A DNA stretch of 64,000 nucleotides, taken from a virus. Of the stretch, positions 2,791 through 61,508 are shown piece after piece. Made by a program: the position numbers and the translations under genes. The stretch spans positions 89,456-153,455 of IMG/VR virus record IMGVR_UViG_3300049434_000014, one strand, 5' to 3'. The notes under the pieces were generated by a model, which searched no databases, was not told the origin of the DNA, and saw only the letters and a program-made list of their open reading frames with translations. Position 1 is the stretch's first letter. The number at the start of each line of letters is the position of its first letter.

Positions 2791-3226
2791 GACTACTCAA
2801 TTCTGTTCAGGCCCGTTCGATTCATTTGACAACCCGGCACAGGCCCTCTCGCATCCATGCGACAATGCGAGTCTTGTCTCCCCCTGGCCCATGCCGACTG
2901 TCCGTCTCGCCTCCGTATCCCATCCTTTCCGTTCTGTGCCGACGAGCCAGCTCGATCCGGGTCTCTCCCACCCACCGACTAGTCTCTGCGGATCCTCCCG
3001 GGTCAGGTGACTCTGCCGATCTAGTCCCAGCGCATCATCTCGTGTCCGACTATCCGTATCCGTGCTTGTCGTTTCCAATCGACCAGTCAGTCCCGGTCAG
3101 TTCGTGCCTTGTTCCGACAGATCGCTGCTGTTCGTTTCCCGTCAGTGCGACGGACCGAGACTGTTCGCCTCCAATCAGTTCGACTACTCGACACAAGTCA
3201 CCCCAAGGCCGACGAACCGTTAGGAC
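2791..3226 (+). repeat. GAC-core array 1
   Basis: Non-coding stretch carrying cores of the form GACNNNYC at 2791, 2828, 2861, 2896, 2941, 2977, 3009, 3048, 3081, 3116, 3149, 3182 and 3211. Spacings are 37, 33, 35, 45, 36, 32, 39, 33, 35, 33, 33 and 29 bases. Spacers are C/T-rich and not conserved. The last unit runs directly into the start-site element of the gene at 3232. Bases 2654-2790 hold only the hairpin noted above and a GGGTACGAC string at 2655-2663. Confidence 0.85.
3218..3226 (+). promoter_or_regulatory. TAGGAC start-site element
   Basis: TAGGAC (3221-3226) five bases before ATG 3232, spaced as a -10 hexamer of a leaderless transcript. It is fused to the last unit of array 1. Confidence 0.5.
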
Positions 3227-4403: not shown

Positions 4404-4900
4404 GACTACACTACTCCGATCCTTTCATGTCGTTGGCGAATCGTTCCCGTCCCGACTATTCGCCGCATGTCCCTTCGTGTCTTGCCAAGTCGACTATTCG
4501 TTTCGATCCCGGCCATTTCGTTTTGACTATTCGCATCGGATCCAGCTCCTATCGATTCGACTGATCTTGTCGACTACGCAAGTCAGTTCCGTTCTTTGCA
4601 TTGCGACTTGTCGAGCCTGTCCGTGTCCGCGCGTATCGACTACCCGATCCAGTTCCGTCCTTTCCCGCTCTTTCCGACTACGCTCGTCTCATCCGGGCAT
4701 GTCATCTCGACTACTCGATTCTTTCTCGTCGCTGCGGCTCTGTTCGACTACCCGGTTCGATACGGGACATCCCTGTCCGTTCTGACTACCCGTCTCCGTT
4801 CGCTTCTAGCCCAGTCCGTCTCGACAACCCATGTCGCGGCACTGCTCTTCTTTCCGTGACGACAGGCCAGTTCCAGTCTGTTCGTCTCTGTACGACATCA
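4404..4900 (+). repeat. GAC-core array 2
   Basis: Cores at 4404, 4454, 4492, 4525, 4559, 4572, 4605, 4638, 4676, 4709, 4746, 4784, 4823, 4858 and 4893. Most spacings are 33-39 bases, with one of 13. GACTACTCG and GACTATTCG forms dominate here. The first core is part of TATGAC, which is a plausible -10 hexamer. The array ends at the start-site element of the gene at 4921. Confidence 0.85.
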
Positions 4901-4906
4901 CACATC

Positions 4907-4915
4907 GGGTAGGAG
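4907..4915 (+). promoter_or_regulatory. GGGTAGGAG start-site element
   Basis: TAGGAG (4910-4915) followed by TTGGG and ATG 4921; the spacing is that of a leaderless -10 element. The G-rich string could also act as a ribosome site. Confidence 0.45.
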
Positions 4916-6009: not shown

Positions 6010-6080
6010 GGCTTCATAGACTAATGGCAGGTCACTAGCCTCTCAAGCTAGGAGTACGGGTTCGACCCCCGTTGGAGCTA
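6010..6080 (+). tRNA. tRNA-Glu (CTC)
   Basis: All four arms pair: acceptor GGCTTCA/TGGAGCT, D stem GACT/GGTC, anticodon stem CTAGC/GCTAG with loop CTCTCAA, T arm ACGGG-TTCGACC-CCCGT. Discriminator A; the CCA end is not encoded. Confidence 0.85.
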
Positions 6081-6092
6081 CGTTTGTATTAA

Positions 6093-6162
6093 CGTTCCGT
6101 GGTGTAGGGATAGCACGCCGGTCACGGGACCGGTAGTCCACGTTTAACTCGTGGCGGAACGA
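6093..6162 (+). tRNA. Irregular tRNA-like gene, C1-G72 acceptor
   Basis: The acceptor (CGTTCCG/CGGAACG), D arm (GTGT/GCAC) and T stem (CCACG/CGTGG) pair well. The anticodon arm does not fit a seven-base loop: CCGGT/ACCGG leaves six bases (CACGGG), while GCCGG/CCGGT leaves eight (TCACGGGA). The T loop is TTTAACT instead of TTCRANY. C1-G72 is typical of tRNA-Pro, but the anticodon cannot be assigned. Confidence 0.5.
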
Positions 6163-6209
6163 CGCACGGCCTAGGATCGCCTCTGCTTCGGGCATGCGCC
6201 TAGGTCTCT

Positions 6210-6283
6210 CGGGATGTAGGGAAGCCAGGTATCCCACCTGTTTTGGGTACAGGAAGCCGCAGGTTCGAATCCTGCCGTCCCGA
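6210..6283 (+). tRNA. tRNA-Pro (TGG)
   Basis: Acceptor CGGGATG/CGTCCCG with the C1-G72 pair expected of proline tRNAs, D stem GGGA/TCCC, anticodon stem CCTGT/ACAGG with loop TTTGGGT, T arm GCAGG-TTCGAAT-CCTGC. No encoded CCA. Confidence 0.9.
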
Positions 6284-6285
6284 CT

Positions 6286-6361
6286 GGATGGATGTAGCTC
6301 AATGATAGAGCCCTTGGATTAACGTCTAAGGAGACGTGGGTTTGATTCCCGCCACCATCCT
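6286..6361 (+). tRNA. Irregular tRNA-like gene, anticodon unassigned
   Basis: GGATGG/CCATCC acceptor, D arm GCTC/GAGC and T arm GTGGG-TTTGATT-CCCGC are clear. The anticodon region has two extra bases; CTTGG/CTAAG would close an eight-base loop ATTAACGT, and the acceptor has one unpaired or bulged base. It may be degenerate or have an expanded anticodon loop. Confidence 0.45.
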
Positions 6362-6365
6362 TCAT

Positions 6366-6439
6366 GGTGAATGTAGCTCAAATGGCAGAGCGCCTGATTG
6401 TGGGTCAGGTCGTTGCGGGTTCGATTCCCGTCGTTCACC
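6366..6439 (+). tRNA. tRNA-His (GTG)
   Basis: Acceptor GTGAATG/CGTTCAC with an encoded extra 5' G (6366) opposite C73, the hallmark of histidine tRNAs. D stem GCTC/GAGC, anticodon stem CCTGA/TCAGG with loop TTGTGGG, T arm GCGGG-TTCGATT-CCCGT. Confidence 0.9.
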
Positions 6440-6441
6440 CC

Positions 6442-6520
6442 GAGAGGGACGGAGTCCAAAGCACATATGGTACCTGTTGCTAGGACTTAAACGACAATGT
6501 TATGTGTGTCCGTCCTTCTC
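6442..6520 (+). ncRNA. Structured RNA element, copy 2
   Basis: Outer stem of 12 pairs (6442-6453 with 6509-6520, one G.U). An inner hairpin GTCC...GGAC (6454-6457 with 6483-6486) has a further AGCA/TGCT pairing. The core TTAAACGACAATG (6487-6499) differs from copy 1 by one base. It sits between tRNA-His and tRNA-Asn. Confidence 0.55.
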
Positions 6521-6523
6521 CTA

Positions 6524-6595
6524 TCCTCGTTAGCTCAAAGGCAGAGCGTGCGATTGTTAATCGCAGGGTTGTTGGTTCAAGTCCAGCACGGGGAG
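6524..6595 (+). tRNA. tRNA-Asn (GTT)
   Basis: Acceptor TCCTCGT/ACGGGGA, D stem GCTC/GAGC, anticodon stem TGCGA/TCGCA with loop TTGTTAA, T arm GTTGG-TTCAAGT-CCAGC. Discriminator G, no encoded CCA. Confidence 0.9.
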
Positions 6596-6606
6596 CGTTT
6601 GTTTAT

Positions 6607-6677
6607 GGGTGTGACAGGATTGTGACAGTGGAGCCCGCTGAGCGGCACTGTTGAGGGTTCGAGTCCCTCCACTTCCA
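6607..6677 (+). tRNA. tRNA-like remnant with intact T arm
   Basis: The T arm GAGGG-TTCGAGT-CCCTC and 3' acceptor half are good. The 5' acceptor (GGGTGTG against CACTTCC) has a T-T mismatch, and no normal D or anticodon arm can be folded; a CCGC-TGA-GCGG hairpin occupies that space. Total length (71) fits a tRNA. Probably a decayed gene. Confidence 0.3.
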
Positions 6678-6735
6678 CGAGATGGGCAGTCGTTGTCGCT
6701 TGCTTCTTTAGCTACGGTAATCACCCCGATGGAGC

Positions 6736-6802
6736 GAGTGACCCTTCACGCGAGGTCGGTTGGAGGCTGACAACCTGACGACAATTGGTGGGCTTGTCAC
6801 TC
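6736..6802 (+). ncRNA. Structured RNA element, copy 3
   Basis: Outer stem GAGTGAC/GTCACTC (6736-6742 with 6796-6802), inner hairpin GGTTG/CAACC (6758-6762 with 6771-6775) and core CTGACGACAATTG (6775-6787). Less conserved than copies 1, 2 and 4, but with the same order of parts. Confidence 0.4.
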
Positions 6803-6976
6803 ACCTACCTATCTCTGCTCGAACCACTTTGTTGGCGGGTTCGCTACCCGTACGGAGTGCCGGTTTGATCCAGATAGGCTCTAAGCCGAGGTGTGGGTGC
6901 GACCCCGCTAGCCCTCGGTGCCCCGAGGATCCCTTGCCAGAGAGGAACCGGATACGGATCTGGTGTTCGAGTAGTC
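6803..6976. other. Non-coding gap in the RNA cluster
   Basis: No gene seen. CCTATCT (6808-6814) and AGATAGG (6872-6878) pair at tRNA distance, but no D or T arm fits between them. CCGAGG (6886-6891) pairs with CCTCGG (6913-6918). It may hold decayed tRNAs. Confidence 0.4.
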
Positions 6977-7040
6977 GAGATGGACAGGGTCTGTGTGAAT
7001 AACGCAGCTTCAACGACACTGTGGTGTGCCTGTCCTTCTC
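6977..7040 (+). ncRNA. Structured RNA element, copy 4
   Basis: Outer stem 6977-6988 with 7029-7040 (11 of 12 pairs; the mismatch stands where copy 2 has G.U). The 3' arm ends in CCTTCTC as in copy 2. Inner hairpin CTGTGT/ACGCAG (6991-6996 with 7002-7007); core TTCAACGACACTG (7009-7021). It ends four bases before tRNA-Cys. Confidence 0.55.
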
Positions 7041-7043
7041 CAA

Positions 7044-7114
7044 GGTGGAATGACCGAGCGGCTAGGTAGCGGTCTGCAAAACCGCGCACGCGGGTTCGAT
7101 TCCCGCTTCCGCCT
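7044..7114 (+). tRNA. tRNA-Cys (GCA)
   Basis: Acceptor GGTGGAA/TTCCGCC, anticodon stem GCGGT/ACCGC with loop CTGCAAA, T arm GCGGG-TTCGATT-CCCGC, discriminator T as usual for cysteine tRNAs. Confidence 0.9.
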
Positions 7115-7118
7115 CGTT

Positions 7119-7127
7119 GGGTAGGAT
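7119..7127 (+). promoter_or_regulatory. GGGTAGGAT start-site element
   Basis: TAGGAT (7122-7127) five bases before ATG 7133, between tRNA-Cys and a protein gene. Confidence 0.5.
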
Positions 7128-7132
7128 ATGTC

Positions 7133-7528
7133 ATGACTGAAACACTGGTAACGGCGCTTCTGAGGAACAAGCCAGGGAAGTGGGCGCACGTCCTTCACGA
7201 GGACTCGGTAGCTCCTAACATTCCCTCCCATCATCTGATGGATCTTGCGTGTGACGTGAATCTGGGCAATGATGAGTGGGCTCCTGCGGGTGCGTTTTCG
7301 GCAGTGATTCGGGATGCTTCGGATCTGTATGTTCGATTCAATTCAGATAAACCTGATGTCACTGAAGTTGTGGTGTCGTACCGTGCGTCGTTGAAGTACG
7401 GTAATTGCTTTGATTGCGGCCTTCCGGGTGCGCAGTATCTGTTGGTCGACGTGGGTGTGATGAACTGTCCGCTGTGTGCGGCTGAGGCTGCGGTAGCGGG
7501 CGCTCAGGTGACTAGGTTGGAGCGTTAG
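7133..7528 (+). CDS. Zinc-ribbon hypothetical protein
   Basis: 131 residues. CFDCG near residue 88 and CPLC near 111 form a C-terminal zinc ribbon; the first 80 residues are an unrecognised mixed fold. It is embedded between tRNA-Cys and tRNA-Trp and probably starts from its own leaderless transcript, so it may not depend on tRNA transcription. Confidence 0.7.
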   Translation: MTETLVTALLRNKPGKWAHVLHEDSVAPNIPSHHLMDLACDVNLGNDEWAPAGAFSAVIRDASDLYVRFNSDKPDVTEVVVSYRASLKYGNCFDCGLPGAQYLLVDVGVMNCPLCAAEAAVAGAQVTRLER

Positions 7529-7537
7529 TTTGTTCGT

Positions 7538-7610
7538 GGGTCGTTAGTTTAACTGGTAAAACAGGAGCCTCCAAAACTCCACGATGTGGGTTCGATTCCT
7601 GCACGGCCCG
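7538..7610 (+). tRNA. tRNA-Trp (CCA)
   Basis: Acceptor GGGTCGT/ACGGCCC, D stem GTTT/AAAC, anticodon arm GGAGC-CTCCAAA-ACTCC (closing pair C-A imperfect), T arm GTGGG-TTCGATT-CCTGC. Discriminator G. Confidence 0.88.
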
Positions 7611-7619
7611 CTTATGAAT

Positions 7620-7628
7620 GGGTAGGAT
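7620..7628 (+). promoter_or_regulatory. GGGTAGGAT start-site element
   Basis: TAGGAT (7623-7628) five bases before ATG 7634. Confidence 0.5.
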
Positions 7629-7633
7629 GTGAC

Positions 7634-7783
7634 ATGTGGCAACGTGAGGATATGGCGAGGTTCCTTATTTGGCTTGACGATCAGGGTTTGCTTAATCCTC
7701 CCGTTGAGATCGAGATTGATGAGATCCTCGATTTTTATGAGGATTATACAGGCGTTTTTACCTCAAGGAGTAGAGATGGCTGA
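7634..7783 (+). CDS. Small acidic hypothetical protein
   Basis: 49 residues, rich in Asp/Glu and Trp/Phe, with no Cys. It overlaps the next gene by eight bases, whose ribosome site (AAGGAG) lies inside it, so the two are co-translated. No family recognised. Confidence 0.65.
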   Translation: MWQREDMARFLIWLDDQGLLNPPVEIEIDEILDFYEDYTGVFTSRSRDG

Positions 7784-8069
7784 GTCTCAGATTTTCGAAG
7801 AGCACACTGTTCGATACCCCGAGTGCGATAAGCTGCACCGTGTATCTGGCGATGTCTCGACGCTGCATGAGTTTCTGGAGTGGCTGGCTGAGAATGGCCT
7901 GCAGGTGTGCAGCCTTGAGGAGACTGGGAAGTTTGACTGTGATGGTCCGGTCGAGCATTACTTCCCAATCCGCGAGCAGCGAGAAGCTTTGGTGCAGCGG
8001 TTCTTTTCGATTGATCCAGCCAAGCTGGAGAGCGAGCGCAGGGCTATGCTTGCTGCACTGCAGAGTTGA
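7776..8069 (+). CDS. Hypothetical protein
   Basis: 97 residues, acidic, mostly helical. ATG 7776 is preceded by AAGGAGTAG, a strong ribosome site, and was chosen over an out-of-context upstream start. No motif. It lies between tRNA genes with its partner at 7634. Confidence 0.7.
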   Translation: MAESQIFEEHTVRYPECDKLHRVSGDVSTLHEFLEWLAENGLQVCSLEETGKFDCDGPVEHYFPIREQREALVQRFFSIDPAKLESERRAMLAALQS

Positions 8070-8079
8070 TTGAAGACAT

Positions 8080-8161
8080 TACCCCGTCGTCTATTTTGGC
8101 AGGACGCTGTGCGGTGGTCGCTCCCCGTGCGGAGGTGCACGTTCGACTCGTGCCGGGGTAG
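8080..8161 (+). tRNA. tRNA-like gene with enlarged middle
   Basis: Acceptor TACCCCG/CGGGGTA, D stem GTCT/GGAC and T arm GCACG-TTCGACT-CGTGC are perfect. The 31 bases between D and T arms are about eight too many. CTCC-CCGTGC-GGAG would be a long variable arm, but then too little is left for a normal anticodon arm. Anticodon unassigned. Confidence 0.5.
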
Positions 8162-8172
8162 CTGGAGGATAG

Positions 8173-8271
8173 ATGTTAGCTAACGTTGTTGGTACGTTAC
8201 TTGGGTTGATGCTTTTTCTGTTGGTGATCGTGTCACTTGTGATGCTAGTTCTGTCGTTTGCTCGTGATTGA
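8173..8271 (+). CDS. 32-residue membrane peptide
   Basis: ATG 8173 follows a CTGGAGGAT ribosome site. The peptide is almost entirely one hydrophobic helix (Leu/Val/Met-rich) ending in Arg-Asp. The clear ribosome site and length of the helix support a real gene for a single-pass micro-protein. Function unknown. Confidence 0.6.
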   Translation: MLANVVGTLLGLMLFLLVIVSLVMLVLSFARD

Positions 8272-8276
8272 TCCCT

Positions 8277-8349
8277 GCACCGGTAGCTCAGGGGATAGAG
8301 TGTCTGATTACGGATCAGAATGTCGCAGGTTCGATTCCTGCCCGGTGCG
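8277..8349 (+). tRNA. tRNA-Arg (ACG)
   Basis: Acceptor GCACCGG/CCGGTGC, D stem GCTC/GAGT, anticodon stem TCTGA/TCAGA with loop TTACGGA, T arm GCAGG-TTCGATT-CCTGC. A34 would normally be converted to inosine by a host deaminase. Confidence 0.9.
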
Positions 8350-8373
8350 CTCCCTAAGTTGTGGAGGCAAGTC

Positions 8374-14644: not shown

Positions 14645-14901
14645 GTACTGCTACAGTGTGTATTCCTGGTACGCGTTCTTATCGCGCGGGTGTGACTCGA
14701 GGTTACGAACGTGCGGAGCGCATGTTTTCCATGGAGGGCTGTGCTCGTATCCCTCATCGTTCTGACGTCCTGAGGGGTCTTCCCTTTTGGGTTGAGGGTC
14801 ATGATGATATTGAGAAGTATCTTGACGGGTATGCGTTAGGATTTGCACGTCGAGTGTCCGGTCATTGGCCAAACGGTATGTTGAGGACTTTCAATGAGTG
14901 A
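14641..14901 (+). CDS. Hypothetical protein
   Basis: 86 residues, Arg/Gly-rich with alternating aromatic residues; no Cys pairs or membrane segment. GTG 14641 and the stop both overlap neighbours, so 14214-15457 is one coupled operon. No family recognised. Confidence 0.65.
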   Translation: MSTATVCIPGTRSYRAGVTRGYERAERMFSMEGCARIPHRSDVLRGLPFWVEGHDDIEKYLDGYALGFARRVSGHWPNGMLRTFNE

Positions 14902-15457
14902 ACCTGTGCTTGATACACGTGATTACAATGCTGAGATGAATGAGCTTATTTCAGAGAAGATTCCTGCTGATGGGGATTTCATTCCTTCGCTGGCTGCGTG
15001 GAGCATCGTCTCAGCTCTCACCGAGACTGATCCTGAGCTTCTCGACGGTTGGCTGCGTTTGCACGCGAAGTCGTTTCTTACGGAGTTGATGCGTGCTCAG
15101 CTTCGTTCTCATCGTGCTCGGGTTCGGTCTAGTGCGAAGGCGACGGCGTTTTCGTCTGCTGCTAAGCGCTTTGAGAAAAACGGTGACCTCGCCGAGCTGG
15201 GCGGGTGGATGAAGATTCGGTATGTAGTCGATGATCAGAGTACGCAGCGTTGTCTTGGCGATATGGATCGTAATGATCTGAATTTCGTTGCTTCACGGTA
15301 TAGTCGGACGGCTCAGACTCTGTTGCTCGAGGAGGCGTTTCATCGCGCGCTAGCATCGCGGGTGGGTAGTCTGAAGGTCAGTGAGGTTTTCACTGAGGAG
15401 CAGATTAGCGCGATGTATCGTAATCTGAGTGGCAATACGCATACTGCTACTGCCTGA
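14894..15457 (+). CDS. Conserved-looking phage hypothetical protein
   Basis: 187 residues, mostly helical. The second half has a WMKIRYVVDD block and a helix with regularly spaced aromatic residues (FVASRYS, EEAFHRAL). I have an impression of similar proteins in actinobacteriophages but no function. Last gene before array 3, whose first core overlaps its TGA stop. Confidence 0.65.
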   Translation: MSEPVLDTRDYNAEMNELISEKIPADGDFIPSLAAWSIVSALTETDPELLDGWLRLHAKSFLTELMRAQLRSHRARVRSSAKATAFSSAAKRFEKNGDLAELGGWMKIRYVVDDQSTQRCLGDMDRNDLNFVASRYSRTAQTLLLEEAFHRALASRVGSLKVSEVFTEEQISAMYRNLSGNTHTATA

Positions 15458-15795
15458 CTTACCAAGACCAGTCACGGCTCATCCGTTCGATACCGTTCCG
15501 ACATGTCTAGCCTCATCCCGTCAAGTCTTGCCATTGCCGACACGTCTAAGCACGTCTATTCACGTCCGACATTCCAAGGCCAGTCGCGTCGCGTTGGGCC
15601 ATATCGCTTCCTTTCCGACTACGCACTTCTGCCCATAACTATTCACGGCGACTTCCCGTATCAGGCCAAGTCGAGCCGTTTCGACTACACACTTCTCGCC
15701 GCGCCTAGTCGGGACCGACTTCACAAGCCGGATCGTGACAGGTCAGTTCGAGACCGACTGGGCTATCCGAATCGTTTCTCATCCGACAATGTCAG
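15456..15795 (+). repeat. GAC-core array 3
   Basis: Non-coding C/T-rich stretch with cores including GACTTACC at the stop of the previous gene, GACACGTC, GACATTCC, GACTACGC, GACTTCCC, GACTACAC, GACCGACT and GACAATGTC as the last unit. Units are looser than in arrays 2 and 5. The array ends nine bases before the gene at 15805. Confidence 0.75.
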
Positions 15796-15804
15796 GAGTG
15801 TCTA

Positions 15805-16772: not shown

Positions 16773-17531
16773 GTGACGGTTTCTACTTCGGCTCCTGTCA
16801 GTGTGTTTGCAAAGTACCGTGATGTCACGTGGCCTTATAGGTATGAGGGCACTCTGCACATCGATACCATTGCTGGAGGCATTCCTTCTGACGAGAAGGT
16901 TGCTGAGGCATGGTTACGTACGAAGTTGGAGAACAAAGACGACCTCATTCGTGAGGCCGTTGCTGAGACGATGGCCGCTCGCGGTGTCGGTAAGGAAGAG
17001 GCGGCACAGATCGTCGCTTCGATGAAGCACTTCACTGGTTTTAAGCGTGACAGCAATGGGCTATACATCGAAGGTCGTCAGCTGAAAGCGGCGATCAAGG
17101 AAGCGGCGATGATTGCTGTCGCCGCTGAGCGGATTCCCCTGCGCGGGTGGGGTGTTACCTCGAAGTACCTTAAGGGTTTCGTCGCGGAACACATCATGGT
17201 TGTCGATGACATCTTGTACTTGAAGGTGGACGGCACTCCTGCAAAGGAAGCTACTGGAATCACTCAGCAGTTCGTTCACACCCAGTACGGTTCGGCTCCG
17301 CACTACAAGGAGTTCGTGTCCGGTGCTACCATTGATTTCACGGTGATTACGGACTTCTTCTTCACCGAGGAGCATTGGATGCACATCTGGGCTACGGGTG
17401 AGCAGGAAGGGATCGGTGCCTCGCGCTCTGGCGGGTTCGGTCGCTACGTGGTTACTCGGTGGAATTTGGTGACTTCCCCACCAAAGAAGAAGGCTCCTGC
17501 CAAGGAGAAGGAAGCGGCTGCAGTTAGGTAG
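16773..17531 (+). CDS. RAMP-like conserved phage protein
   Basis: 252 residues from GTG 16773 with a strong AGGAGG. Blocks include YEGTLHIDTIAGG near residue 28, GLYIEGRQLKAAIKEA near 97, and IGASRSGGFGRYVV near 224, followed by a Lys-rich tail. The last block resembles the glycine-rich loop of RAMP-fold proteins such as Cas7 (G-x-S-x-G-x-G). I believe related proteins occur in other actinobacteriophages without assigned function. A relation to CRISPR proteins would be structural only; no cas neighbours or repeats are present. RNA binding is an inference. Confidence 0.6.
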   Translation: MTVSTSAPVSVFAKYRDVTWPYRYEGTLHIDTIAGGIPSDEKVAEAWLRTKLENKDDLIREAVAETMAARGVGKEEAAQIVASMKHFTGFKRDSNGLYIEGRQLKAAIKEAAMIAVAAERIPLRGWGVTSKYLKGFVAEHIMVVDDILYLKVDGTPAKEATGITQQFVHTQYGSAPHYKEFVSGATIDFTVITDFFFTEEHWMHIWATGEQEGIGASRSGGFGRYVVTRWNLVTSPPKKKAPAKEKEAAAVR

Positions 17532-17598: not shown

Positions 17599-17870
17599 CT
17601 TCGACTATTCGTGTCAGATCTATCCATCTCCTTCGACCAGCCGTGTCGCGATCATGTCGCTTCCTAGTCCTTTCGACCTGTCGCTACGTTGCGCTTCTTG
17701 GCATATCCACACCGACCATGCGCGCCGCGACCTTACAAATCCTCTCGCCCTGACGAGTCTCCACGCGGCTCTACAATACTCATCATTCTGACAAGTCTTC
17801 ACGCGGCTCTACAATACTCATCATTCTGACTAGCCAAACCGGTACATACCATTTCGCACGACTGAGGACT
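17599..17870 (+). repeat. GAC-core array 4 with a 38-bp duplication
   Basis: Cores GACTATTC, GACCAGCC, GACCTGTC, GACCATGC, GACGAGTC, GACAAGTC and GACTAGCC in C/T-rich sequence. Two copies of a 31-base string beginning CACGCGGCTCTAC (17762-17792 and 17800-17830) are identical and offset by 38 bases, showing recent duplication of one unit. The array ends at the start of the DnaX-like gene. Confidence 0.8.
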
Positions 17871-55014: not shown

Positions 55015-55039
55015 GTGTCTTTCCATAAGGGAGTTGATA

Positions 55040-55807
55040 GTGCTATCACCACAACAGCGTAAGTTGATTGAAGATAGAGTTGGACTGGCTCGCGCTGTAG
55101 GTCATAAAGAGTGGAAGAAGTTATCAGGATACGAACGCGACGAAGTGATCGCGTGGGCTCTGCATGGGTTGGTGTCTGCTGCGGTGCGCTGGCCAGCTTA
55201 TTGCGAAGAGCATGGTTATGAAATGTATACTGAGACTGCTCAGTCTTGGTTCAATACTTATGCGTCGCAGCGGATTCATGGTGCTGTGATTGACGCATTA
55301 CGTTCTTTAGATCCTGCTACGCGACGAGAGCGCGCGATAGTTAAGGACATTATTGCTCACGGTGTGGACTTGTATTCTCCGTGGGATCATGATTCTCCTG
55401 AGTCGATCGCTGCTGCCACGGGCCTGCCTATCGCGGACGTCTCAGCGGCGATCTCAGCGCTCATGCGGGTGCCTCTGAGCCTCGATGAGGCCGTGGAGCT
55501 TGAGCAGGCTCCTGACCCTCGCAACGTCGAAGCTGAGGCGCTGGCGGCTGATCTGGCGGGCCGTGTGGTGGCAGCGGTGTCCGCGCTGCCTCGGCTTCAT
55601 CAGCGTGTATTGATCTTGTCGGTGCATCTCGGCTATTCTGATGTTGAGGTGGCCAAGGCTCTCCCTGAGATCTCGCGGGATCCTGTTATGAGACGCTGGT
55701 CTGTGCAATGGATTGTGTTCCTTCGCAGGCAGGCCCAAGACTCATTGATTGCTACCCTGCGAGCTGAGCTAGATCCGGGTGAGGAATCTTGGGCTGCGAG
55801 CGGGTAG
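55040..55807 (+). CDS. Phage sigma factor
   Basis: 255 residues from GTG 55040 (AAGGGAG upstream). QSWFNTYASQRIHGAVIDAL near residues 68-87 follows sigma region 2 of the FliA/SigB type (helix that melts -10 DNA). Residues about 185-245 with LPRLHQRVLIL and a helix-turn-helix-like stretch fit region 4. It would redirect host RNA polymerase to phage promoters, possibly the TAGGAY elements. Its TAG stop is part of a GGGTAGGAG string that leads into array 5. Confidence 0.75.
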   Translation: MLSPQQRKLIEDRVGLARAVGHKEWKKLSGYERDEVIAWALHGLVSAAVRWPAYCEEHGYEMYTETAQSWFNTYASQRIHGAVIDALRSLDPATRRERAIVKDIIAHGVDLYSPWDHDSPESIAAATGLPIADVSAAISALMRVPLSLDEAVELEQAPDPRNVEAEALAADLAGRVVAAVSALPRLHQRVLILSVHLGYSDVEVAKALPEISRDPVMRRWSVQWIVFLRRQAQDSLIATLRAELDPGEESWAASG

Positions 55808-55944: not shown

Positions 55945-58900
55945 GACTAGTCGAGTGCACTCCCCATCCCTTCTCGTCTCGCGACTAGTCGAGTTCCCGT
56001 CCCGGCACCTCCTGTCGTATCGACTAGTCGCTTACCGTCTCGTCAAGTCAGATCCGTATGACTAGCCGAACCCGTACCGTCCTCGCCGTTTCCAGACCGA
56101 CATGTCTATGCCCTGCTGAGCAGCTCGTGTCTGTCCGACTGTTCTGTCTCGACTTGTCGAGTCGGATCCTCCCGTTCCCGACAAGTCGACTCGGGTCGAT
56201 GCGGTCGACTGTTTTTATGACAAGTCGATACCGTCCAGGTCAGATCAGGTCGACCATTCTCACGACAAGCCGAGATTGTGCCGGGTCCGTCCGGGTCGAC
56301 AAGCCACGTCTTTACCAGTCTTCTCCGTTCGACAGGTCGAGTCATAGCGATTCGTGCGACTCTACTGTTTCGATTCTGCTGTCTCGACTGTATCCTCACG
56401 ACAAGCCGACTCGGGCTCACGTCCCGCCAATATGACTTATCAGTTCGACTGATCAACGCGACAAGTCAAGTCCCCTCGGGTCCATTCGTGTCATTGCGTT
56501 TCGACAAGTCAAGTCGCACCGAGTCTAGTCACGGTGACTATGCTATGCGGGTCAGTACCGTCCCAGACAATTCTGTTCTGTCGACCACGCTATCCGGGTC
56601 AGGGCTAAGCCAAGCGACCGCGCTTGCCTGTTCGTTCCATTTCATTCGACTTCTCACTTACGACTTCTCATGTCTGGGCACGTCATCTCGAGAGACAATC
56701 CAAGTCTGAACACAACAGCTCGACTCAGAAGACAACTCAAGTCACGCCTTGCCCAGTCATCCCCGTGCGACTACTCCTGTCACTGCGAACCAACCCGGTC
56801 CTTACGACTATTCCTTGCATAGCGAAGCACATCGTTTCCTTCTGACTTTGCACTCAGACCATACAGAACGACTTCTCTGTTCGAGACAGTTCGCGGCGAT
56901 TCCTTTCGACTGTTCCCTTTCCTGACAGAGCCAGTCATTTCAATTCACTGCCTTCCCGACGAGTCAGATCCGTTCGCGTCCGGGTCCTGTCTTCTCGTTT
57001 CGACCTGTCCGATCAAATCTGGGCCTGACGGTTCTGTACCGACTCTTTCAACATGACTATTTCAAACAGACTGTTCCAGCCAGGTCAATACGGCGCTCCC
57101 CGACTTATCAGTACGACAAGTCAACTCAAGGCAATGCAGCTCCTCCCCGTTTCCGACTGGCCCAGTCAGGTCAATACAGGGCTCTCTGACGGTTCTGTTC
57201 CGACAAGCCAGCTCACGACAAGTCAAAGCAAGTCAGTTCGGGTCCGTTCGTTTCGACAAGTCCTCTCAGGTCTGATCTCTCCGACAAGCCAGCTCACTGC
57301 GGATCCGTTCGTTTCGACTATTCGGGTGTGGTCACGTCAATGCGGATCGGTATGACTAATCGACTCCTGTCCGATCAGCTCTCTGCCGACTTGCCTTGTC
57401 CAACCCGACTCAGTGCAAGCGACTTGTCCTGACGCGGCGTGTCAGTCCAGCATCGACTATTCTGGTCCTGACGGCCCCGATCATGTCGCCTCGACTTCCC
57501 CTCCCACGCCGGGTCACCTCCCTTCTTTCGACAGTTCGGATCCAGTCACTTCCCATACACTTCGACATGTCCTATCCGTTCGAGTCAGATTCAGATCCTT
57601 ACCGACTACTCCTGTCAGTTTCGATACCGTTCAATCCAAGTCAGTGCGACTACGCATGTCGCGGCGAGTCATTTCCGGGTCAGCTCCGACTCTACGAACC
57701 CGACTGGTCGCGTCTGATCCTTGGCCCTTCCGTTCTTTCCCGACTGGTCAAGACAAGTCCTTTCCCGTCTGTTGACAGGTCAGATCCAGTCATGTCCCTT
57801 CATTGCGACGAGTCTCCGCACTTCGGGTCTGCACGTTCCGACGAGTCTACGCAATTCGATCCCGTACATTTTCGACTGGTCGCATCTGGTCTATGCCATT
57901 TCACGTCGACTAGTCGCACCTGCCCGCTACCTTTCCACGTCGACTGGCCAAGCCGTTGCGGTGACACGTCATTTCAGATCGCCTTCTGCCCCGACACTGC
58001 GAGTCACGTCACTGTCTCTGCGGGCCAGTTCTGATCACTTCGACTATTCGACACGAGCCTTACCGAGTCTGTTCGACTAGACGATCCGTTACCAGTCGCT
58101 ACGACTATATGTTCACGACTATCCGATGCGATCCTTAGCTGATCTAGTCGCTCTGACTACTCGATTCGTTTCGTGTTCTATCCCGACTATGCGAGTCTTC
58201 TCCCATCGAACCGTTCTGACTACTCGATCCATTTCGACGCCGCTTCGTATCTGCCCCGACTACTCGAGCCAATTCTATTCACGTCGACTCAGATGACTGG
58301 CTTATGACAATACAGCCCGCACCGTTTCCCTGCCTCCCCAATCCATGCAGTCCCGACTGCGCGCATCATCTCCATACCCTTCCACTCCCTACATCACTGA
58401 CTGACCAAGTCGAGACACGTCATTTCATCACCGACTGACCAAGTCGGGTCAACTCCACCTCATCTCCGACTCCACGGACCACTTCCCTTCCGTTCGCCAC
58501 GACTCTTTCGATACGATTCTTTTAATACGATTCTTTTAATACGATTCTTTTAATACGATTCTTTTAATACGACTGTTCAGCTCGCCTTCATTGCCACGAC
58601 CATTCCTTTCCCTTCTGACTGTTCATCTCGGTTCATGTCCGTCCATCTCTAGTCGACTACTCTTGCCGGGTCTGTGCTGCTCCGACTACTCCCGTCAGGC
58701 CCGAGCATTTCGCTTACCGACTACTCCGATCCTCCCACGTCCCATCACCTCGGTACGACTGTTTCGTTGCGACTACTCAGGTCACTCCATTCCCCTTCGA
58801 CTACCGACTGTTCGTGTCACGACATTTCCACCCTTATCAAGACGACTCATCATTACGACACGTCGTGGCGAGGCGACACATTCCGCACACGTCTTTTCCG

Positions 58901-60215
58901 ACACGTCATTATCGAGTCGTCTCGACACCGCTTCCCTTCACGTCCGACTCTACGAATCTACACATTCGACCGACCACTTCGGATCCAGTCATGGCTGCCC
59001 CCTTCCGTTCTCTTCCGACAAGTCGCATCGCGTCCTGTACGCTGTCAAGTCACTGCACATGACTAGTCGGCTTCGTTTCGCTGTCTCCCCGTGTCATTTC
59101 CCGTCCGACAAGCCGCAATCAACACGCGTCCCGTCATACCGAGACGACTGGTCAATATGACAAGCCGCTTTCAACTCGCCTACGCGTCATGCCGACAAGT
59201 CGACACGCTTACCATCCATTGCTCTGCCGACCACCCAAGCCTGCCCCCTGCCGCTGCGCCTCGATGCCGACCAAGCGCTTCTTTGCTGTCCGCGCCCGTT
59301 TCGATACCGACCAGCCGCTTCTTTGCCAGTCCGGGTCAGTTCCTTTCCGACTTGTCCCTGCTGATCAGTACAATCCGAGTCGACAAGCCATGCCAATTCA
59401 AATCACTTCACTGTGACAAGTCACGACGGATCCATTCATTTCTGAGCGACAAGTCACGACGATTCCTCCCACTTCTGGTCGACTGTTTCGGTGCGACTAC
59501 CCGTGTCCCTGCATGTCTTGTCAAGTCTTGTCAATGCCGACTATTCGGGTCATGTCTGCGCGCGTCGACAACACCACTCAAGTCCACCGCAGTCGATTCT
59601 ATTCCGACAAGTCAGGTCAAAGCGGGTCAGCTCTCACCGTTACCGACAAGTCAGATCAGGTCGAGTCAGTTCCTATCAATGCGACAAGTCGCATCCCATC
59701 CGTGCGGGTCTGCTCGCCTGCTGACAAGTCACGTCGCTTCCCCTCGCCACGACTCGTCAAATCAAGCCGTGCCATGTCTACTCGTTTCGACAAGCCAGGT
59801 CACAGCAAGTCGGCTCATTGCGACGAGCCAGGTCACGACAAGTCCCCTCCCGTCCGACGAGTCAGAGCCGTACAAGTCCCTTCCTTACCGACTACTCTGG
59901 TCAATACGATTCCAGTCCTGTCGACAAGTCAGATCAGAACGCGCCACCTCATTTCAGCCCGACAAGCCTAATCGGGTCCTGCCATTTCGGTTCAGTGCGA
60001 CTACTCGTCTCGTGTCCCTTCCTGTCATTGCGCTCCCCGTCCGACAAGTCATTTCCGCGTCGACCCAACGCGCTGCGACATGTCAAGTCGGGTGCGCGTC
60101 ATGGCTCTGCACTTCCCTTCCGACTACTCCCGACAAGACCCGTCTGGCCGGTTTCGAGCCGGATCTCTGCGAGCCAATCCGACTGCTCCGTTCGTGACAT
60201 GCCGTTGACGTCTTC
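55945..60215 (+). repeat. GAC-core array 5, 4.3 kb non-coding
   Basis: The largest array. The first cores (55945, 55983, 56022, 56060, 56099, 56137) are 38, 39, 38, 39 and 38 bases apart; then intervals of 12-14, 27-29 and 33-34 appear. In 56461-57480 I count 42 GACNNNYC cores. GACTAGTC dominates at the left end, GACTACTC near 58.1-58.8 kb and GACAAGTC near 59.1-60.1 kb. Flanks are C/T-rich. Open frames of up to 368 codons here are low-complexity Ser/Arg/Pro strings with no ribosome sites, so I read the region as non-coding. 55811-55944 holds no gene. Confidence 0.85.
58511..58569 (+). repeat. 14-bp tandem repeat inside array 5
   Basis: Four exact copies of the 14-mer ATACGATTCTTTTA, preceded by a looser copy and followed by CGACTGTTC. 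It is a local expansion of a unit in which GAC has become GAT. Confidence 0.85.
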
Positions 60216-60454: not shown

Positions 60455-60807
60455 TGGGGCGGGGATCTGTTGTGGGGAGTCTGTTGGCGCTTCATCGTCG
60501 GGCTGAAGGCTCCACAGAGCGAGTGAAACGACAATGGTTGGTTTGTAACTCTCCTGATTTATATCATGTTCCGAATACTCCGTGTGCGGCTCGTGATTGT
60601 AAGACGTGTGGTGAGCAGGTTTGGGTTCCGATGTTGTTTCTACCGTTGGTGGAGTCTGGGGAGTTGTCTCCGGTGTGCTGGCCGTGTCATGATGCGACGG
60701 GTCGGCGGGTGGGGATGCATCGGTTAGAAGAGCCCATCATCAAGTCGATGGGTAAGATGGGTGAAGCACAGGAACTTCTCGATTACCTGAATTCTCATCT
60801 CGACTGA
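60454..60807 (+). CDS. Zinc-finger hypothetical protein
   Basis: 117 residues. CAARDCKTCG near 43-52 and CWPCH near 75-79 form a zinc site. The final residues HLD and the TGA stop coincide with the first GACTGA unit of array 6. No family recognised. Confidence 0.7.
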   Translation: MGRGSVVGSLLALHRRAEGSTERVKRQWLVCNSPDLYHVPNTPCAARDCKTCGEQVWVPMLFLPLVESGELSPVCWPCHDATGRRVGMHRLEEPIIKSMGKMGEAQELLDYLNSHLD

Positions 60808-61490
60808 TTTATTACGACTGATTTACTACGACTGATCTAATCGTGTCCCATCGTTACGTTTCGACTGGCCGATTCTGTTCCCGACTGAGCTAGTCGCGTT
60901 CGCTCATATCAGTTCCCTTCCGACTATTCATTCGCTTCAGCGCATCTCGGTCCATACGACAAGTCCGCTCGCGGCTACTCGTGTCGAGTGACATGCCATG
61001 TCAAGTCCTTACGTTTCTTTTCGACGTGTCAAGCCAATACCTCACAGCTCCCGTCTTAAGACTCGGCTGGGCGACCCAGATCTCATCACGTCATTGCGAC
61101 CAGTCGAGCCAACCCCTGTTCGCGTCTATGTGACCAGCCGCTTCGAGCCAGCTCGCGAACGCTTCCCGTCAGTACCGACTCACCTGCTCAAGCCCATTCG
61201 GTTTCCGGCCCGACTAGCCTCGTCGCCTCTTGCCCTTTCTGTTCGACTTGTCTCCGCTCCCCCACTCATCTCCTGGCCGACTACTCACCTCGTGCCCATC
61301 CGGGTCCCCCCGTTTCGCGGCGACTACTCAAGACAGCACACGATCTCGTCTATCCGCTTCGACTACTCCAATCCGCTCAATTGCGTCTTGCCAGATCACA
61401 TCCGACTACCCATAGCCATATCGAGTCTTGTCTCGGCGACTCCGACTACCCGATCCGTCGCACTTCTTTTCATCCCTGTTCGACTGTCCT
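60802..61490 (+). repeat. GAC-core array 6
   Basis: It starts at the stop codon of the previous gene with three GACTGAT units 14 bases apart (60802, 60816, 60830), then cores such as GACTGGCC, GACTATTC, GACAAGTC, GACCAGTC, GACTAGCC and GACTACTC in C/T-rich sequence, and ends before the gene at 61509. Confidence 0.8.
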
Positions 61491-61508
61491 TATAACTGGG
61501 GAGTGAGA

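Follow-up and report, generated by a model that had tools for sequence, protein, structure and literature searches.

The DNA analysed here (the window) is a stretch of 64,000 nucleotides, the last 64 kb of the 153,455-bp record of an uncultivated phage (IMG/VR record IMGVR_UViG_3300049434_000014, hereafter G000), and six of its intergenic regions carry arrays of a short oriented core, GACNNNYC. The record, whose ends overlap by 127 bp, has a siphophage gene set (tape measure, portal, ribonucleotide reductase, clamp loader). All six arrays lie on the plus strand: A1 (2791-3224) and A2 (4404-4910), with 12 cores each, A3 (15456-15798), A4 (17603-17862), the giant non-coding array A5 (55945-60215) and A6 (60802-61495), with 17 cores. 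A3 is flanked by two plus-strand genes, named here B2 and R7. B2 (14894-15457) encodes a protein of 187 aa and is immediately followed by A3, and R7 (16773-17531) encodes a Cas7-like protein of 252 aa of the RAMP type, with A4 starting 71 nt past it. A5, with about 120 units, starts some 140 nt past a gene resembling a sigma factor, and its end lies at an AGGA that resembles a ribosome-binding site.

The original prediction, made from the letters of the window, held that the six arrays form one non-coding family with a preferred core that is sparse elsewhere, and each part of this description was borne out. GACNNNYC occurs 172 times in the six arrays, as opposed to 33.3±5.2 times (maximum 49) in shuffles preserving dinucleotide content, and 118 times in A5 alone (22.3±4.3 in shuffles), while the preferred form GACWANTC reaches 58 (1.0±0.9). 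Each array individually exceeds its own shuffles, so the frequency is not that of the base composition. Outside the arrays the core falls to 2.0 per kb in the window, and no array was found in the other 89 kb of G000 when both strands were scanned. On the coding strand, C makes up 0.34-0.36 of the arrays and G is scarce, in contrast to the G-rich genes. The possibility that A5 is a translated gene was ruled out by 17 to 23 stop codons in each forward frame. No Rfam family matched the arrays, the RNA fold of a 401-nt array piece did not surpass that of shuffled sequence (z=-0.21), and a promoter and terminator scan gave nothing above shuffles.

Alignment of all cores on GAC revealed a grammar. 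Around the header, C recurs every five bases (+2, +7, +12, +17, +22, +27 and +32 from the G; -1, -6, -11 and -16 before it), with a phase reset of three bases at each GAC. An array unit is thus read as a GAC header followed by n copies of the pentamer NNNYC, the units standing head to tail and usually containing 5-7 pentamers (among the cleanly parsed units, n=6 in 30, n=7 in 23 and n=5 in 13). YC hardly changes from pentamer to pentamer, whereas the three N vary, giving 15-24 variable nucleotides per unit; most units are 28, 33 or 38 nt long (3+5n). It follows from this parse that GAC-to-GAC spacings should be 3 modulo 5, and 28, 33, 38 and 43 nt are indeed preferred. The lag-5 autocorrelation of C reached 1.67 in A5 against 1.00±0.03 (z=21.5), with z from 5 to 9 in the other arrays; the rest of the window gave 1.04. 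The TC three bases beyond the core, which the original prediction had singled out, was seen, but is only the visible end of this period-5 grammar. The arrays are not simple tandem copies, and near-identical unit pairs are few. One 38-nt unit of A4 is duplicated (17750-17830, about 95% identity), which suggests that arrays grow by duplicating units. Two tandem repeats with a 14-bp period, perfect or nearly so (ACGATTCTTTTAAT x5.3 at 58499-58572 and CGACTGATTTACTA x2.6 at 60801-60836), sit inside or at the edge of an array and, being unlike the remaining array sequence, are perhaps products of recent slippage.

The same period-5 grammar was found in a relative of G000, in pooled viral contigs and in other uncultivated phages. 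The relative (L007/G001, 146 kb), found through a NrdA 67% identical, is collinear with G000 and carries one array of 4 kb, a small one at the A3 position (83649-83856) and one at the A5 position after the same sigma-like gene. The giant array is not at the same place in both genomes: A5 measures 4.3 kb in G000, whereas the array at its position in G001 spans 0.6 kb. No identical units were shared between the arrays of these two phages, the best identities being near those of shuffled controls; unit number and turnover between relatives fit a changing guide repertoire. A scan of IMG/VR with a degenerate pattern for two adjoining units returned at least 119 stretches, and a separate unit test identified no fewer than 93 loci whose arrays have 7 units or more. 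Counted over whole records, the forward pattern far exceeded the reversed-pattern control in most of 49 viral records. One phage (G007, loci L288-L292) has nine arrays spread over both strands, several of them antisense to its R7 gene. The identical scan of bacterial and archaeal genomes yielded mostly single chance matches and one convincing array, in Nonomuraea (L230, 11 units), although the chromosome as a whole showed no forward excess over the reversed pattern; this is also the only one of 117 pattern-matching bacterial or archaeal loci, which served as a random-hit control, to encode R7. The module is mainly phage-encoded; of 395 genomes from a single bacterial class, 1 carried it. Among cultured phages, no DNA similarity was detected to the array or to the 25 kb around it.

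What do these arrays travel with? Twenty further array phages were retrieved whole or nearly whole, and the proteins of the resulting 22 were compared all against all. Apart from the tape-measure protein, R7 was the family present in the most phages, with BLAST finding it in 12 of the 22 and a profile in 21; B2 occurred in 8, tied with one other family. General phage genes aside, R7 and B2 were the only shared array neighbours recognised. R7 adjoins arrays in about 60 loci, typically at 5-130 nt and on the strand of the array except in L148, L098 and G007; B2, among the most shared array-adjacent genes after R7, adjoins arrays in many loci, and some loci have an apparent B2-array-R7 operon. 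When whole records were considered, 48 of 50 array-bearing records encoded R7, and both of those without it (G022 and G052) have their array at a contig end; few array-poor control records encode R7. The arrays are hence linked genetically to a Cas7-like gene, almost always in its orientation and often together with the gene for a helical partner, and the earlier proposal that an oriented array family works with a phage-encoded protein is probably correct.

A tblastn search of R7 against 50,697 cultured phage records gave a single match, in Microcystis phage Mae-JY09 (PP395641.1, L368), where the gene order is a B2-like gene, R7 and a GAC-unit array, none of them annotated as such. Unlike the 48 of 50 records, this case owes nothing to how the R7 profile was built, and it serves as an independent test of the association. 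One such record among so many means that cultured phages almost entirely lack the family, which may have been overlooked for that reason. The Mae-JY09 array, which is GC-rich, directly follows R7 and has a strong hairpin behind it; the GC-rich sequence is a reason to check the stated Microcystis host.

R7 had no usable assignment in Pfam, PHROGs or NCBIfam, the last giving weak Csm4 matches in 4 of 51 members. PADLOC Csm4 models matched 12 of the 51 (best 7.9e-7), and the protein has a C-terminal glycine-rich loop, GIGASRSGGFGRY. Its AlphaFold model (predicted local distance difference test score, pLDDT, 88.6) resembled type VII Cas7 and type III Csm3 in Foldseek searches (E 4e-8, probability 1.0), and on this model R7 is a RAMP protein with a Cas7/Csm3-like predicted fold. 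The Vipr protein of SUSP1 was among the top PDB sequence matches of R7, none of which was individually significant. VIPR, described in a 2026 preprint, comprises phage RAMP proteins with guide RNAs made of tandem YNNGG pentanucleotides, whose NN pair with target DNA while one base is skipped per repeat, i.e. a non-contiguous recognition; it is reported as a relative of CRISPR RAMPs and proposed to predate CRISPR (PMC13142463). Seven types are published, with the consensus GGY/NN or "a related consensus", and SUSP1, whose characterised locus has four guides, represents type II (PMC13142463). A profile of SUSP1-clade Vipr proteins (SUSP1, LittleE, Trine, Medea1, phiHSIC and a Vibrio phage) aligned with the C-terminal two thirds of R7 with an hhalign probability of 94.4% (E 9e-8), as opposed to 3% for the unrelated control B2. 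The match to the more distant Vipr group (Saal, Pipp, Cy-LDV1) was weak (8.5%), yet that group and the SUSP1 clade gave a good alignment with one another, making R7 a distant branch. The model of B2 is all-helical (pLDDT 88.7), and a fold search with it matched no known fold.

Two observations concern relatives of these proteins. A weak R7-like RAMP match (E 2e-6) at G004:C1:33205-33633 lies in a distant relative with no GAC arrays detected and may be another VIPR-like type. The Vipr homologues of LittleE, Trine, Saal and Pipp (L372, L373, L375, L378), cultured Mycobacterium and Gordonia phages, are annotated as hypothetical and have GGY/NN tracts adjoining them. Our period-5 scan finds GGY/NN or GCANN-like repeats beside known Vipr genes, and since it recovers these known repeats we regard it as calibrated.

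Taken together, the arrays and R7 are a real, widespread and previously unannotated guide-array-like module, VIPR-like with a different RNA code. We propose that the arrays supply guide RNAs to an RNA-guided system that is carried by phages and resembles VIPR, a reading to which we assign a probability of roughly 0.83. R7 would be the effector binding the array RNA. An array would be transcribed with its operon and then either cut into units or loaded as is; R7 subunits would line along the RNA, one per pentamer, each holding on to the constant YC and leaving the variable NNN exposed for pairing with a DNA (or RNA) target, and GAC would mark the guide end. By analogy with the SUSP1 system, the system might silence competing phages, satellites or host genes in a sequence-specific way.

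Several observations weigh against a guide function. The consensus differs, NNNYC here as opposed to YNNGG in VIPR, and departs from GGY/NN; the structured 3' tail of the type II system has no counterpart in the arrays, where units abut at GAC and leave no room for one. In G007 and L148, arrays lie on the strand opposite to R7. The figure of 48 records in 50 is partly so by construction, because the R7 profile includes sequences of the same records. When 3 Mb of array-phage DNA were searched under the tested skip rules, no target enrichment over reversed sequence appeared beyond leftover array pieces. Exact IMG/VR scans with decoded guides, by skip or contiguous decoding, gave zero matches, a weak negative as only four guides were used.

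The candidate roles named by the original prediction (sites for replication, segregation or packaging, a structured or decoy RNA, a sink for a host protein) do not fit the linkage to a RAMP gene, the shuffle-like folding and the Rfam result. Were the arrays double-stranded DNA sites of a centromere, origin or packaging type, bound by a phage protein whose operator is GAC...YC, their oriented, intergenic and multicopy motif would be explained, as would the palindromic character of some cores (GACWWGTC, 36 versus 0.7 expected). A period of exactly five with three-base resets at GAC is, however, out of step with a 10.5-bp helix, B2 and a RAMP of RNA-binding type are the families whose genes go along with the arrays, and a phage has multiple arrays that differ greatly in size at syntenic sites; we find this explanation quite unlikely. 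Less probable still is a pyrimidine-rich RNA sink in which YC on an unstructured transcript sequesters or triggers Rho. Sites for Rho (rut) are unstructured RNA with a C>G bias and spaced YC, traits that the arrays share, but rut needs no 5-nt phase, and the GAC header, the unit length of 3+5n and the linkage to R7 would be left unexplained.

A different objection accepts the guide-array module and places the functional RNA on the antisense strand, as GRNNN...GTC. The Y is mostly C in GC-rich phages, so that the complement reads GGNNN and comes nearer to GGY/NN, and the antisense arrays of G007 and L148 would be accounted for. Against this, the arrays share the strand of R7 in nearly all loci, in some of them within the apparent B2-array-R7 operon, N3 lacks the purine preference that a GGY reading needs, and in the low-GC phages G000 and G001 the Y is mostly T and the complement gives GA rather than GG. 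We judge the antisense version unlikely and retain the sense-strand guide arrays.

If the sense-strand arrays are guides, the pairing rule may leave traces in the variable letters. Across 1,521 units, N3 and the N1 of the next pentamer carried the dinucleotide preferences of the phage genome (z=7.4 to 8.1; for example, TA at 0.76 of expectation), and the other 15 letter pairs between neighbouring pentamers had z at or below 3.3. The signal held when G000 (z=4.2) or G007 (4.5) was taken by itself, was lost in the highest-GC group (0.9) and was absent across GAC (-2.5). Because N3 and the next N1 stand two bases apart and yet behave as genomic dinucleotides, the letters of successive pentamers are suggested to be neighbours in the target. 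This points, tentatively, to a separate VIPR-like branch in which NNN triplets pair with adjacent target bases, none being skipped, GAC delimits guides of 15-24 nt, and up to about 100 guides are stockpiled in one array; we consider such a branch possible but doubtful. A codon-phase test of the decoded guides returned a weak GC signal only, well below that of simulated contiguous coding targets in GC-rich phages, and the composition of N1 and N2 is nearly independent of genome GC, unlike that of N3, which follows it; these results, together with the absence of targets in the searches above, speak against contiguous pairing.

Other features of the window lie beside the arrays. The 257-aa gene before A5 (55034-55807), also kept ahead of the syntenic array in G001, looks like a flagellar or stress-type sigma factor by a region-2-like motif and has no Pfam match. 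Eight tRNA genes are clustered at 6010-8350, one of them with a two-base anticodon call.

How does the module compare with known systems? TRAP sites, short constant RNA motifs every 5 nt, resemble the arrays by analogy only: TRAP recognises (G/U)AG triplets and does not belong to the RAMP proteins, and no TRAP-like gene was seen tracking the arrays. With class 1 CRISPR-Cas (type III Csm3/Csm4, type VII Cas7) the module shares the RAMP fold, the glycine-rich loop and a variable array of many units, and differs in being phage-borne, in having a single RAMP gene and in the period of five inside the guide. CRISPR hallmarks were looked for and not seen: there are no conserved long direct repeats, GAC being the sole constant between units, and no other cas genes were recognised.

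The closest likeness is to VIPR. The original prediction knew of no matching family; VIPR is one of matching kind with a different consensus (PMC13142463). Like the SUSP1 clade, the module places a phage RAMP gene beside long non-coding tandem pentanucleotides with constant and hypervariable letters, in a small locus with a candidate accessory gene and a homologous proposed effector (hhalign 94%). By contrast with that clade, the present arrays are punctuated by GAC, have 5-8 pentamers per unit instead of 9-16 and reach up to about 100 units in one array, and R7, at 252 aa, is longer than the VIPR effector of about 195 aa; B2 is a candidate counterpart of vap only. Because the GGY/NN consensus and the tail are lacking, we did not file the module under a VIPR type. 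If the guide reading is right, the letter code varies with the RAMP protein (NNNYC versus YNNGG), phages stockpile many guides, from tens to a hundred units, without CRISPR repeats, and what RAMP proteins require in RNA, together with the origin of arrays, become directly testable questions. Should contiguous triplet pairing also hold, this would be a phage-borne multi-guide memory with an architecture between VIPR and CRISPR.
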